33,934 nt of DNA from Rhodothermus sp. (GTDB taxonomy: Bacteria; Bacteroidota; Rhodothermia; Rhodothermales; Rhodothermaceae). A program made the position numbers and the translations under genes. The stretch covers positions 1 through 33,934 of the forward strand of contig WFPM01000096.1 in assembly GCA_015487635.1 (NCBI GenBank), read 5' to 3'. Below the pieces are notes generated by a model. That model had not been told where the DNA came from. It made no database searches and saw nothing but the letters and a program-made list of their open reading frames with translations. Below are positions 13,551 through 18,549 of this stretch, piece by piece. The stretch's first letter is position 1, and every line of letters begins with the position of its first letter.

Positions 13551-14504
13551 ATGGCCACTACTCTGCCAGAAGCGTTCCTGGCGCGGCTCCGGCGGCTGGT
13601 ACCACCGGAGCGGTTGCCAATGGTCGAAGCGGCCTTCCGGGAGCCGCGCATCACGGCCTTCCGGGTCAATACGCTGAAGGCCGATCGCGACACCGTGCAG
13701 GCCGCGCTGGAAGCCGAAGGCATTCGTCCGCGGCCGGTGGCGTGGTATGCCGACGCCTTCCAAGTGTCCCCGGAAGCGCGCGCGGCACTGCTCGCGAGCA
13801 GGCCCTACCGCGAGCGGTGGATCTACGTGCAGGACCTGGCCAGCATGCTACCGCCGCTGGTGCTGGCGCCCGAACCGGACGCACGCGTGCTGGACCTGTG
13901 CGCGGCGCCGGGTAGCAAGACGCTGCAACTGGCCTGCCTGATGCAGGGCCGGGGCGAAATTGCCGCCGTTGAGGTCGTGCGCCCGCGCTTTTACCGCCTG
14001 AAGGCCAACGTGCAGGCTTACGGCGCCCCCAACGTGCGGTTGTACCTGCAGGACGGCACGCGCGTGGGCCGCTACCGGCCCGAATACTTCGATTACGTGC
14101 TGGTCGATGCGCCCTGCTCTTCGGAGGGACGCTTTCACCTGAGCGATCCCGGCACGTTCGCCTACTGGAGTCCGCGCAAGATCCGCGAGATGGCCCGCAA
14201 GCAGTACCGACTGCTCGTGTCGGCCGTCCGGAGCCTGCGTCCGGGCGGCGTGCTCGTTTATGCCACCTGCACGATGGCGCCGGAAGAAAACGAAGCCGTG
14301 CTCGACCGCCTGCTGCGCACCTTCGAGGGCATGCTGAGCGTCGAACCCGTGGAGCTGCCCCTTTCCAACCAGCTCCCCGGTCTTGAAAGCTGGGACGGCC
14401 GTCCATTCCACCCTGCCCTGCGCCTTGCCCGGCGCATCCTGCCCACCGCCGAAATGGAAGGCTTCTTCCTGTGCCGCCTGCGTAAGCAGCGGTCTATCGC
14501 TTAA
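13551..14504 (+). CDS. RsmB/NOP (NOL1/NOP2/Sun) family RNA m5C methyltransferase
   Basis: A 317-residue SAM-dependent RNA cytosine-5 methyltransferase, probably acting on 16S rRNA. It shows an N-terminal substrate-binding region (FRVNTLKAD, about residues 37-45), the SAM-binding motif [11 protein letters not shown] (114-124), motif [10 protein letters not shown] (186-193) with the release cysteine Cys189, and motif [13 protein letters not shown] (238-248) with the catalytic cysteine Cys240. The C-terminal PUA-like or RsmF-type extension of the longer family members is absent, so this is the minimal catalytic form. I cannot tell RsmB, RsmF or tRNA specificity apart. The start ATG at 13551 lacks a clear Shine-Dalgarno. 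Its TAA overlaps the TAA of the convergent MCP gene. Confidence 0.92.
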
Positions 14505-15799
14505 AACAGCTCAATGCGCGGGCCTTCTTCGTCTGCGTCCCTCGCATGCCCGGACGCGCCAGACGGCGGGCGTGGACGCGAGCGTTCCAGCGGCTCTTGC
14601 AACCACCGCGCGCCTTCCAGGAGGTAGCCTGCCACCTTCTGGAGGACCTTGATCACCTGCTCAAGTTCCTGACGAGCGACATCCTGAAACTGAATCGCTC
14701 CCAGGGTTTCCGAAAGCCGTGCCACTACTTGATTGCTGTTGACCTGCTCGACCACATCGACGAGCGACGAGATGCGCTGATTGTTCTCCCGAAGTGCCTG
14801 TTCAATCTGCCGACTGGCCTGCTGCAGCTCCTGCAATTCCTGCGCATTGGTTTCCATTAACGTGCTCAACTGGCCGATTTTCTCCTGCAGACGATGAGTC
14901 ACCTGGGATACCTGCCGATCGATCGAAGCAGCGATCGTTCGGGTTCGTTCCGAAAGCTTTTGCACCTCGCCCGCAACCACGGCAAAGCTGCGCCCGGCTT
15001 CACCGGCTCGGGTCGCTTCGATCGTCGCATTAAGTGCAAGCAAGTGGGTCTGTCGGGCAATGCTGTCGATCTGGTCGACCAGCGGCTGCAATTGCCGGGC
15101 TTCATCGACCAGTTGATGCAGTTGTCGAAGTTCTTCGCGGGTACGCGTCAGTTGCGCTTCAAGGTAATCGCGAATTTTCTGCTCGACCACTTCCAGTTCC
15201 CGGTTACCCTGTGCCACGAGCTGCACCTCATGAGCAATTTCGGCAATGCGGGCCACCTGCTCCTGCGAAGAGGTATGAATGCGGCTCAGGTGTTCGACCA
15301 CGCGCATGACATCGCTTTCAGTACGTGTCAGCAGCCCCTGCAAACGACCACAGACATCCTGCAATGAGGGCTCTAGCTGGAACAGATCGTCCCCCAACGC
15401 TCGGGCTTCCTGCTGCAACCGCTCAAAAGACTGGCGCAAGTGGTGCAACTCGCGGCGGCTCTCTGAAAGGGTGTGCTGAGCTTGCCCCAGACGCCGTCGC
15501 TGTTGCTCCAACTCCCGACGGAGCGCGCCGATGGCGGCCGAATGTTCTACCTGCGGGGCTTCGGGCGCCGGTACAGTCGAGGCAGCCGATTGCACCCTCA
15601 CCCGTCGATCCCGACGCGAGGGCAGCCTACTGCGCAACACCCATCCCCCCAGAAGCCCCAGCAACCCGCTGCCTTCGACCAGGACCACCACCCAGAAGGT
15701 TGGCCGCCACTCCTGACGCTGCGCAAGCATCCATCCTGAACTACCCAGTACTACACCGAAACAGAGGATACCAACCAGGGGCCATCCGAAACGACGCAT
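14501..15799 (-). CDS. Methyl-accepting chemotaxis-like signalling protein without a sensor domain
   Basis: Taking the ATG at 15799 (a GTG at 15805 is an alternative), this is a 432-residue protein with two close transmembrane helices (about 6-25 and 36-56) separated by a loop of about ten residues, so there is no ligand-binding domain. A long coiled coil follows (about 90-240), then the MCP signalling tip [20 protein letters not shown] (about 249-268) and [14 protein letters not shown]. The tip indicates interaction with a CheA/CheW-type complex. Beyond the returning coiled coil lies [15 protein letters not shown], with Asp373 and Gln377 in the DxxxQ spacing of the CheZ phosphatase. The C-terminus is short, charged and disordered. 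No che genes are adjacent. The upstream region is long and AT-rich. Confidence 0.85.
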
Positions 15800-16190
15800 C
15801 GGCACACCTGCTCAAGGTTTACGCACCCTGACCTTCCCGCCCTGGATTCTTGCTTTTTAGCTTCTATTTTAGGACATTTATGCTTCCCTTTCCCTTTTTC
15901 ATTAAAATTTAACACAATTTACATAATTTGATTGATCAAATCGTCTTACTAATTAAACTATTAATAAACAACATACTAATCAAATAAAAGCATTGCCTTT
16001 CTTGCAAGAGTATCTGCATCTTATCAGAAGTAGGGAGTGTCTGCGAAGGAAAGCGCTTTACCAAATTGGACCTCTCAGCGACCCGGTACAGGGATATGGG
16101 CACCTTATCGCTTGAAACATGGCCGGTGCCTGTCCAGCAATCGACCATCATGCCTGCAGCGCACGGCACCGTCTCAAGCCTGCTTAGCAG
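15800..16190. other. AT-rich non-coding stretch upstream of the MCP-like gene
   Basis: About 390 bases contain no credible gene. Roughly 15840-16010 is strongly AT-rich, unlike the GC-rich surroundings. It contains the inverted repeat ATTTGAT-TG-ATCAAAT (15926-15941) and two near-identical direct repeats, TACTAATTAAA (15947-15957) and TACTAATCAAA (15974-15984), 27 bp apart. ATCAAAT occurs again at 15979-15985. This is most easily read as the regulatory region of the minus-strand MCP gene. The more GC-rich part, 16020-16190, shows nothing I can name. Confidence 0.5.
15926..15985. promoter_or_regulatory. Candidate operator cluster (ATCAAAT motifs) upstream of the MCP-like gene
   Basis: There are three half-site-like copies of ATCAAAT or its complement: a 7-bp inverted repeat with a 2-bp centre at 15926-15941 and a further copy at 15979-15985. 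The direct repeat TACTAAT(T/C)AAA at 15947 and 15974 lies in the same stretch. The arrangement suggests binding of a dimeric regulator. No specific regulator is identified, and chance AT-richness remains possible. Confidence 0.3.
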
Positions 16191-16217
16191 AAAGGCCTGC
16201 CGCGATAGCAGGCCTTT
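16191..16217 (-). terminator. Bidirectional-type terminator after the cytochrome operon
   Basis: A perfect 10-bp stem AAAGGCCTGC / GCAGGCCTTT (16191-16200 and 16208-16217) with a 7-nt loop. It has A residues on one edge and T residues on the other, so it can work in both directions. It lies 81 nt beyond the stop of the cytochrome lipoprotein gene and probably ends that minus-strand operon. The T tract is only three to four long. Confidence 0.6.
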
Positions 16218-16298
16218 CACCCAGGGTGCTGAAGCCCGAATAGCTTTTGCCCCACAAGGGCCGGGGTATTGCGGTCTATGCGCAATGCCTATGTCTGC

Positions 16299-16625
16299 TC
16301 AACCGTTCGACGAAATCAGAAATTCCCGGATTTTCTGTACCTCCTCTTCGGTCAGGTTGGCCCGCACCCGCATATGGTGGGTAATGATTTCCCACTCTGC
16401 ATCACCAAAGGCTGCAGGCGGCGGGGCATTGTGGCAACGAATGCAGTTCTCCCCCCACAACTGCACCCCCGTCTTCACCTCAAGGGCTCGTACCCGCGGC
16501 GTAGCTTCGCCAACGGTCTCCTGCGCCTGCAGATTGGATTGATAGGTTGCCGGACTACACCCGTAGAGGCTCAATCCGAATGCACCCGCCACTGCCAGCA
16601 CGGTCAGGGTTCTTATCGCTTTCAT
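16299..16625 (-). CDS. Monohaem c-type cytochrome, predicted lipoprotein
   Basis: A 108-residue predicted lipoprotein. Its signal peptide ends in the lipobox LYGC (residues 20-23, lipidated Cys23), and a small haem domain follows with one c-type haem site, CIRCH (61-65). Met85 in HHMRVRAN is the best candidate distal ligand, and a C-terminal helix, TEEEVQKIREFL, closes the class I fold. It would be anchored to a membrane facing the periplasm or, if exported further, the cell surface; sequence cannot decide. It is the third gene of a cassette with a porin and another monohaem cytochrome, 16 nt after the porin gene, with the Shine-Dalgarno-like ACGGAGAG upstream. A role in electron transfer is firm; partner and substrate are unknown. 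Confidence 0.88.
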   Translation of the reverse strand: MKAIRTLTVLAVAGAFGLSLYGCSPATYQSNLQAQETVGEATPRVRALEVKTGVQLWGENCIRCHNAPPPAAFGDAEWEIITHHMRVRANLTEEEVQKIREFLISSNG

Positions 16626-16641
16626 GGCGTCTCTCCGTTGT

Positions 16642-17850
16642 TTAGAATCCGATGGCTACATGAATCATGAAGGCATTTTTGAAAACCCCTCCAGCCTCTC
16701 CTTCTTCTCCGGCAGGCGTCTTGGCCATACCGGCCAGCTCCTCGTGGGGCGCTTCTCCCAGCATATCATTGACCAGATAGCTGAACTTGATTACTGTACG
16801 CCAGTCCAGCCAGTAATTCAGACTGAAGGCGATCTCTCGCCGCTTTTCGCCCCAGGGCGCCTCGGGTGCCAACTGCAACCGGGACAGGCGCCCTACAAAT
16901 TCCATGCGTTTCAGTACATTGCTACGGACAAACGAAGGTTGCAGCGAAGCCTGCACGAAATAGGCCCAGCTTTCATTGTCAAACGTGACCGTTTCGCCCG
17001 GCTCCTGGCCCGGATAGGTTGCGCGATCGACCAGCACAGCATTGTACTGGGCTTTGATGTTCAGCATGCTCTTCAGGAAGGTCAGCCGCCGTACCAGATT
17101 CAGGTCGATCGCATACATCCGTGCAGCTACGTCCTCAAAAGCAGATTCAGCAGCACCTACTCGGGCATACTGTCCGGACAGGCCGATCTCCAACGATAGG
17201 TCTGACAGCGGCAGCACGCTCAGCCGACCTCCGAAGGCTTTGTTTGTATTGTTATCCTCAATCAGACCATAGGTCAGCTGACCTGCCGCATCCGGATCTG
17301 CTTCGCCATCGTTCAACGCCGGACCGTTGACCACGTAGGCCGCATACGTCAGCCGTCCGCCTCCCAGCGGAACGGCGCCGCGCAATTCGATACCAAAGTC
17401 AGAGGCCGGTCCCACTGGATTGTCATGTCCAAAACCCGGCGGTGCTGTGGGCAGACGATTAATCCACGCTGGATGCAGGTTCGCCGAAAAAATGCCAAAC
17501 GGTAAAAGGAACCGCCCCAGCCGCACTGTCAATCGGTTGGTTAGCTTGTAGGATATATTTGCGTATTCCAAGTCAAATTCCACCTCTCCGGCCTCAAAAG
17601 AAACCCCTAACTCTCCCTCAAAAAGCAGTCGGTCCGACTGTCGCCACAGAAAAATGGGGTTAAAACTACCTCCTACAAAGCTGTTCTGCCATGGCTTATT
17701 TTCAAACTTTCGAAATTCAAGGCCGGTATGGCCGTAGCCGCGTACGGTGAAGAGGCTCTGTCCGGGGGTGGGATCCAGCCGCTGGGCCCAGCCAGGTACC
17801 ACTCCGATCCCCAGACCGATCCATAGTGCTATTAGAAATTTTCGTTTCAT
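16642..17850 (-). CDS. Outer-membrane beta-barrel porin-like protein of the cytochrome cassette
   Basis: A 402-residue exported protein with a signal peptide (residues 1 to about 22, ending GWAQ). The mature part is built of alternating amphipathic beta strands ending in the outer-membrane signature phenylalanine (HVAIGF). The block LTVRLGRFLLPFGIFSANL (about residues 107-125) followed by WINRLP is characteristic of porin-like proteins in Bacteroidota and Proteobacteria that resemble phosphate-selective or anion porins. There is no haem motif in the barrel itself. It has a strong Shine-Dalgarno, AAGGAGGA, at 17857-17864, six bases from the start. It lies between two monohaem cytochrome genes with gaps of 24 and 16 nt, so all three are surely one transcript. 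The substrate is unknown; an electron conduit or solute porin are both possible. Confidence 0.82.
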   Translation of the reverse strand: MKRKFLIALWIGLGIGVVPGWAQRLDPTPGQSLFTVRGYGHTGLEFRKFENKPWQNSFVGGSFNPIFLWRQSDRLLFEGELGVSFEAGEVEFDLEYANISYKLTNRLTVRLGRFLLPFGIFSANLHPAWINRLPTAPPGFGHDNPVGPASDFGIELRGAVPLGGGRLTYAAYVVNGPALNDGEADPDAAGQLTYGLIEDNNTNKAFGGRLSVLPLSDLSLEIGLSGQYARVGAAESAFEDVAARMYAIDLNLVRRLTFLKSMLNIKAQYNAVLVDRATYPGQEPGETVTFDNESWAYFVQASLQPSFVRSNVLKRMEFVGRLSRLQLAPEAPWGEKRREIAFSLNYWLDWRTVIKFSYLVNDMLGEAPHEELAGMAKTPAGEEGEAGGVFKNAFMIHVAIGF

Positions 17851-17874
17851 GGCGATTCCTCCTTGAACGTTTCG

Positions 17875-18285
17875 TTATTTCTTAGCCAGCGTGCGCAAAT
17901 AAGTCACCACCTGCCACCGCTGCTCTTCGCTCAGCATGTTTTTAAAGGCCGGCATGGCCCCCCGCCCCTCACTGATTTTCCAGAAAAGGGCACCGTCCGT
18001 TTGCGCCTGCACTTCTTCCGAAGTCAGATCGCTCGGACGAGGGCTAAGCGCCATCCCTGCCGGTCCGTCGCCACGCCCCTTGTCGCCATGACAGACCACA
18101 CACTGCTGCTGAAAAATCGTTTTACCTGCCTTAATGGCCTCCTCCACCCGGTTGGCGTAAGGATTTTTCAGGGTATCGGCCCAGGCCGGCGCCTTCCATT
18201 TGCTCTGGCCAATGGGCGCCAAAGAGTAGGCACCCAGGCTTCCGCCTATGCCGAGCAATACCATAAGCCACCAGTACCAGCGCAT
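17875..18285 (-). CDS. Monohaem c-type cytochrome, membrane-anchored or exported
   Basis: I place the start at the ATG at 18285, giving 136 residues, because AAGGAG lies 7 nt upstream and the N-terminus is then a clean hydrophobic segment (WWLMVLLGIGGSLGAY). The frame continues upstream to 18318 without a good ribosome site. A class I cytochrome c domain follows, with CVVCH (residues 62-66), the haem-pocket proline/glycine region DGPAGMALSPRPSDL, the likely axial Met111 in RGAMPAF and the terminal helix EEQRWQVVTYLRTL. It would carry electrons in the periplasm, tethered to the inner membrane if the helix is not cleaved. It is the first gene of the cytochrome-porin-cytochrome operon. Its physiological partner is not evident. 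Confidence 0.9.
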   Translation of the reverse strand: MRWYWWLMVLLGIGGSLGAYSLAPIGQSKWKAPAWADTLKNPYANRVEEAIKAGKTIFQQQCVVCHGDKGRGDGPAGMALSPRPSDLTSEEVQAQTDGALFWKISEGRGAMPAFKNMLSEEQRWQVVTYLRTLAKK

Positions 18286-18292
18286 ACGTTCG

Positions 18293-18298
18293 CTCCTT
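18293..18298 (-). promoter_or_regulatory. Shine-Dalgarno AAGGAG fixing the cytochrome start
   Basis: Read on the minus strand, AAGGAG is 7 nt before the ATG at 18285. This selects the shorter 136-residue protein over the frame opening at 18318. Confidence 0.75.
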
Positions 18299-18329
18299 TT
18301 TGTTTTTTGGTGTAACAACTTTGTTCATA

Positions 18330-18358
18330 CAGATACCAATCACCGAAGTTTACTTCAA
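18330..18358 (-). promoter_or_regulatory. Candidate promoter of the cytochrome operon
   Basis: On the minus strand TTGAAG (18358-18353) and TATCTG (18335-18330) are separated by 17 nt, in the AT-rich gap before the first cytochrome. Both boxes match the sigma70 consensus only partly. A start site near 18323 would leave a leader of about 38 nt. This is the best candidate in the gap, but weak. Confidence 0.3.
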
Positions 18359-18433
18359 GAGGTTAATTTGAACTTTTTTTGTGACCAAATCCAAGAAAAA
18401 CAGAATAATAAATGTATTGAGATACATTTATTA

Positions 18434-18467
18434 AAAAGCTCTTCGGACCGGAATTCGAAGGGCTTTT
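18434..18467 (-). terminator. Terminator after the GH32/lutA remnant transcript
   Basis: 12-nt arms AAAAGCTCTTCG (18434-18445) and CGAAGGGCTTTT (18456-18467) enclose a 10-nt loop. One internal pair is G-U on the plus strand and mismatched on the minus strand. On the minus strand the stem is followed by T residues at 18437-18433. It lies 83 nt past the last stop of the decayed lutA/vapC frame and before the cytochrome operon promoter, so it should insulate the two. Confidence 0.6.
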
Positions 18468-18549
18468 CGACCAATGCGCTGCATGATGCTTCAGGCCACG
18501 AGCACGCCCAACGCGCGGCCGACTTTTTCAAAACCTGCGAGCGGTCGGT

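Follow-up and report, generated by a model that had tools for sequence, protein, structure and literature searches.

The window analysed here, a stretch of 33,934 nucleotides, forms one contig in a Rhodothermus-like assembly of 3.03 Mb. It possesses a set of three closely spaced genes in which a gene for an outer-membrane barrel is situated between the genes of two monohaem cytochromes (Table 1). The intergenic gaps are 24 and 16 bp and a Shine-Dalgarno-like purine run is present at the start of each gene, suggesting that the three genes form one operon. The sequence-only reading of this DNA had described three tight genes on one strand with the haem-binding, methionine and C-terminal motifs listed in the table, and all of them were found in place.

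Table 1. Features of the three-gene module and its surroundings in the window
Feature	Position	Strand	Description
Gene 1 (P0001)	17875-18285	-	136 aa, monohaem cytochrome c; CVVCH at 62-66, Met111
Gene 2 (P0002)	16642-17850	-	402 aa, 16-strand outer-membrane barrel, distant Porin_O_P type, C-terminal IGF
Gene 3 (P0003)	16299-16625	-	108 aa, monohaem cytochrome lipoprotein; lipobox ..LYGC23, CIRCH at 61-65, Met85
Methyl-accepting-type signalling gene	14501-15805	-	MCPsignal E=2.7e-23
4.0-kb segment (module and methyl-accepting-type gene)	14487-18490		absent from same-genus genomes, flanks joined there
Inverted repeat	18411-18428	-	AATGTATCTcAAtACATT / TAAATGTATctcaATACATTTA, upstream of gene 1
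kbl 3' remnant (~42 bp)	18491-18532		upstream of module

Within the genus, the 4.0-kb segment is cleanly missing from several genomes. In G002, only 31 bp separate the sequences that flank positions 14487 and 18490 in the window (92% and 84% identity on the two sides), and the segment is equally absent from G001 and G005, where rsmB directly follows kbl. The methyl-accepting-type gene was detected in G000, G003, G004 and G006, the last of which matches the public Rhodothermus MAG contig JALSJJ010000226.1, and no close match to it was found in G001, G002 and G005; it may be a passenger or a sensor. The intact kbl of the window's genome is located on another contig (C79), and in the relatives kbl directly precedes the module. 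Outside the genus, the nearest barrels belong to Calditrichota and Bacteroidota relatives with 44-54% identity, while barrels of the window's own order share 30-34%, suggesting horizontal transfer. The inverted repeat upstream of gene 1 is a possible operator or promoter element, and its consensus occurs once in each of four module-bearing genomes of the genus and is absent from the two module-free genomes searched. A wider regulon for this motif was considered and rejected, since the module alone carries it in the genus genomes searched.

Gene 1 matched the Pfam profile Cytochrome_CBB3 with E=9e-16 (58.4 bits against a cut-off of 27), which places it above the cut-off for Cytochrome_CBB3/Cytochrom_C. 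In the family alignment Met111 is kept in all 50 of 50 members, and W124 and R131 are likewise invariant. The sequence-only reading had called the product a tethered monohaem cytochrome c. The monohaem cytochrome c assignment stood, and the tether became uncertain because the relatives show apparently cleavable signal peptides ending in ..AQ. The product appears to be exported to the periplasm, where a cleavable signal and an N-terminal tether are both possible. A model of the small cytochrome, built without haem, gave no structural match.

Gene 3 matched the described families more weakly. It scored under the cut-off with Cytochrome_CBB3 (E=7e-4, 20.4 bits, cut-off 27) and with DHC (PF09626; E=0.0023, 19.4 bits, cut-off 22.2), of which it weakly matches one half of the profile. 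Unlike this dihaem family, gene 3 encodes a lipoprotein with one haem and an invariant His-Met pair. Met85 is kept in 55/55 family members, and its retention throughout the wider gene-3 family points to a role as the axial ligand. The residue before it, His84, was found in each of 61 barrel-type gene-3 sequences and in none of 24 other relatives. As it is confined to the barrel-associated members, His84 is probably tied to a barrel-related function. In three further loci (L135, L144 and L146), a different barrel-like protein of ~268 aa is directly followed by a small monohaem lipoprotein which is related to gene 3 and has no His84; this is possibly a second barrel-cytochrome pairing.

The structure of the barrel was predicted by AlphaFold2 from 55 aligned homologues. 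The model is confident (pLDDT 88.9, pTM 0.86) and composed of 16 strands. The top Foldseek matches in the PDB were general 16-strand porins, with OprP and OprO at lower positions and TM values of about 0.5-0.6, and an MtrB-like fold was absent among the best matches listed. When PDB sequences were searched with the profile of the barrel, no meaningful match was obtained. Porin_O_P (PF07396) was matched by 40/55 family barrels at E<=0.01 with a best E of 3.6e-9, and the window barrel itself reached 12.8 bits, under the curated cut-off of 20.9. The most conserved part of the protein, above the strands, is loop 3 (residues 116-149, 34 residues), which carries the pattern L.PFG.F...LHPAWIN.LP. In porins, loop 3 usually narrows the pore. 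His126 in this loop is replaced by Ser in Legionella and is thus not universal, so a fixed metal site in the barrel is not supported.

To understand how constant the three-gene order is, relatives were collected by a barrel-profile scan with one genome per species, which gave 148 relatives and 80 kept loci. The scan relied on barrel patterns alone and thus involved no selection for cytochromes. In loci with sufficient contig room, CxxCH genes on the strand of the barrel and immediately next to it were counted. A haem gene was present upstream in 77/81, downstream in 82/84 and on both sides in 74/78 loci; these loci are partly redundant and represent 54 distinct barrels at <=90% identity. Most of them belong to Bacteroidota/Chlorobiota and Calditrichota, and others to Rhodothermus and to MAGs of Neomarinimicrobiota, Verrucomicrobia and Planctomycetota. 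In an independent, unbiased draw of 296 genomes of the phylum, the barrel was found in 12 at a threshold of E<=1e-20, and in all 12 a gene-3 type cytochrome (>=66 bits) was adjacent. Ten of these genomes possess both cytochromes and two possess a fused two-haem downstream gene, and the barrel-negative genomes contain only weaker gene-3 relatives (<=56 bits).

The order of the three genes is thus strongly conserved in other genomes (haem genes on both sides in 74/78 loci). Barrel homologues routinely standing without cytochromes, which would have spoken against the sequence-only reading, were not encountered within the family in either sample; cytochrome-free porin-like proteins were seen only at much weaker similarity to the barrel. 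This distribution bears on the view that gene 2 encodes an ordinary solute or oxyanion porin of the Porin_O_P type which merely shares an operon with general respiratory periplasmic cytochromes. The general 16-strand porin fold and the Porin_O_P matches of most members favor such a role. A general porin is not expected, however, to be kept with two specific cytochrome families over many phyla, to be fused with them, or to be accompanied by a barrel-specific His84 form of the gene-3 family, and the ordinary porin is therefore very unlikely. The module also differs from Porin_O_P proteins in the constancy of its cytochrome partners and in the sub-cut-off score of the window barrel.

Natural fusions link the three parts further. 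On plasmid NZ_CP082853.1 of Legionella anisa, the barrel is preceded in the same chain by three gene-1-like cytochrome domains (hhalign barrel E=8.7e-35), and the following gene consists of a gene-3 domain (hhalign E=1.2e-21) and another cytochrome domain. Alteromonas macleodii pKD02 possesses the barrel (E=1e-47) followed by a gene-3 domain (E=3.7e-17) fused to a cytochrome, and by annotation Glaciecola pGLAAG01 has the same layout. A fused two-haem downstream gene was also found in three genomes of the window's order (L018, L115 and L117). Fusion of gene 1 with the barrel and of gene 3 with a gene-1-type domain, together with the adjacency of all three genes elsewhere, strongly supports the existence of a physical redox unit. 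Chance adjacency of the cytochromes was excluded by these fusions and by the 12/12 co-occurrence. The link between barrel and electron transfer, which the sequence-only reading had drawn from gene order alone, thus gained strong support from cross-phylum conservation, strict co-occurrence and natural fusions, and it is almost certain that the three parts form a functional redox unit. In the Alteromonas and Glaciecola plasmids (L103 3064-12852 and L104), the barrel and the fused two-haem gene are situated near FAD-oxidase, ferredoxin and cytochrome c3-type genes.

The fusions also indicate on which side of the membrane the haems are placed. In an even-stranded porin the N-terminus is periplasmic, as argued for Cyc2 (PMC8406198). 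The cytochrome domains at the N-terminus of the even-stranded Legionella barrel are therefore expected to be periplasmic, and so are the gene-3 domains, as they are fused to gene-1-type domains. Surface-exposed lipoproteins of Bacteroidota carry an acidic export signal (PMC5080379), and this signal was found in 0/47 gene-3 lipoproteins, although the rule was derived solely from Bacteroidota and may not apply to Rhodothermus. The sequence-only reading had proposed a single haem to either side of the barrel, and both lines of evidence disfavor it. An arrangement with both haems in the periplasm, and one at the mouth of the barrel, would fit better, and a periplasmic position of both haems is likely.

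The same evidence weighs on a true trans-outer-membrane wire, in which gene 1 would be periplasmic, the lipoprotein cytochrome would be on the cell surface and electrons would be exchanged with extracellular partners by way of the barrel. The conserved order and the cytochrome-barrel-cytochrome make-up do resemble conduits built of a periplasmic cytochrome, a porin and an outer cytochrome. All 47 lipoproteins are without the surface-export signal, however, and the chain of fusions from gene-3 to gene-1-type domains and on to the periplasmic N-terminus of the Legionella barrel keeps the two cytochrome types on the same side. Moreover, two single haems a membrane span apart are too far from each other for fast electron transfer. 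Such a wire is accordingly quite improbable.

The genomic context was then analyzed for copper genes. CusA-type pump, P-type ATPase, multicopper oxidase, HYC_CC_PP protein and CopZ-like HMA protein were used as markers; the identities of the marker seeds were checked, that of the P-type ATPase by reading only. Among loci outside Rhodothermus with >3 kb on both sides, at least one marker was found in 51/58, compared to 1/20 control loci around barrel-free gene-3 relatives. These loci are non-independent and dominated by Flavobacteriaceae, so the p-value calculated for this comparison is too favourable; the trend holds also in Calditrichota, Neomarinimicrobiota and Chlorobiota. Near the module copies of the window and of other Rhodothermus, none of the markers was found. 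All seven genus members possess CusA-type pumps, whether or not they carry the module; as these pumps do not track it, copper genes were rejected as evidence for why the module is kept in the genus. Copper as the substrate in most lineages is an evenly balanced possibility, and in the Rhodothermus of the window it is rather doubtful. In Flavobacteriaceae and relatives (L034-L096), recurrent partners in the copper islands are an AraC regulator with a metal-binding-like N-terminus and DUF302, PII-like, DUF5676, DUF2231, NDH-2 and lycopene-cyclase-domain proteins.

Two further explanations depend on this context. In the first, the module serves copper export: the two cytochromes would oxidise periplasmic Cu(I) and feed the electrons into the respiratory chain, with the barrel as a mere exit for Cu(II) or a copper complex. 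The location of loci beside CusA, multicopper oxidase, CopZ-like and P-type ATPase genes and the probable periplasmic position of all haems are consistent with this. It is nevertheless unlikely, since fusion of cytochrome domains straight to the barrel suggests a role at the barrel itself, and the Rhodothermus copies have no adjoining copper genes. In the second, the module acts on another substrate, e.g. Fe(II), sulfide or NO-related compounds, and copper islands are only its frequent carrier. The Rhodothermus copies standing alone argue for it, and so does a distant relative from the window's order (L017 9086-14972). There, the genes situated after the barrel and its two monohaem cytochromes resemble, from reading of their sequence, a GltD-type oxidoreductase, a Rieske protein, a cytochrome b and a six-haem cytochrome. 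The architecture is also that of the Fe(II) oxidase (PMC8406198). Against it stands the strong enrichment of copper markers over the controls, which makes this explanation improbable.

Comparison with known systems places the module closest in design to Cyc2 of Fe(II) oxidisers. Both have a 16-strand barrel of OprO/OprP-like structure, partnered by a periplasmic cytochrome with one haem, a likeness of design and fold, and OprP/OprO are the templates reported for the Cyc2 barrel (PMC8406198). In Cyc2, however, haem and barrel are in one chain, while in the window and nearly all relatives they are separate and fused only in Legionella. Cyc2 has one cytochrome family where the module has two different ones, and the module is found in copper islands. 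As the N-terminal cytochrome-barrel fusion is not the arrangement of the module, it was likened to Cyc2 in design only and not assigned to it. With MtrCAB, MtoAB, PioAB and other porin-cytochrome conduits such as PCC3 and PCC4, the module has in common a gene cluster encoding an outer-membrane barrel and c-type cytochromes. The MtrCAB/PCC conduits differ in possessing ~26 strands and a multihaem cytochrome inserted in the barrel, compared to 16 strands and one CxxCH per neighbouring gene in the module, and possibly also in having a surface-exposed cytochrome, which is not predicted here by the Bacteroidota rule. The module sits among Pco/Cop/Cus copper resistance genes in most lineages, and we know of no cytochrome-barrel-cytochrome set in these systems.

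On this basis, the reading preferred here, by analogy and at slightly less than even confidence, is an outer-membrane redox module that resembles a split Cyc2 and acts on a soluble substrate, which in most lineages would most likely be a copper ion. Through the barrel, a small dissolved substrate would be able to enter the lumen from outside and meet the haem of the gene 3 lipoprotein in or at the barrel. The gene 1 cytochrome c would then shuttle the electron across the periplasm into the respiratory chain, or electrons would move in the opposite direction. It is somewhat more probable than not that the barrel brings a substrate, whether arriving from outside or on its way out, into contact with the haem. 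In this scheme, complex formation, the position of the plug, the substrate and the direction of flow are as we infer them. By the Cyc2 analogy, electrons could plausibly be exchanged with the outside. In most lineages, a possible reaction would be the oxidation of Cu(I), which would yield Cu(II) as the less toxic form and, unlike the reaction of multicopper oxidases, would require no O2. A broader proposal is more speculative and on balance rather unlikely: a widespread undescribed oxidoreductase in which Cu(I) or another soluble metal ion would be oxidised inside the barrel and the electron delivered to respiration, so that copper would be detoxified independently of O2 and energy perhaps gained.

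No earlier description of the three-gene module was found in the literature searched, which mostly excluded subscription journals and preprints. To our knowledge, the outer-membrane electron conduits known so far are multihaem wires or the fused Cyc2. An all-monohaem version in three genes, with patchy gain and loss over many phyla, would widen this conduit class and offer a simpler system for study. If the substrate is copper, the module would represent a redox branch of copper resistance which is independent of multicopper oxidases. Further members can be searched by the signature of an HM..RA lipoprotein cytochrome beside an LHPAWIN barrel.
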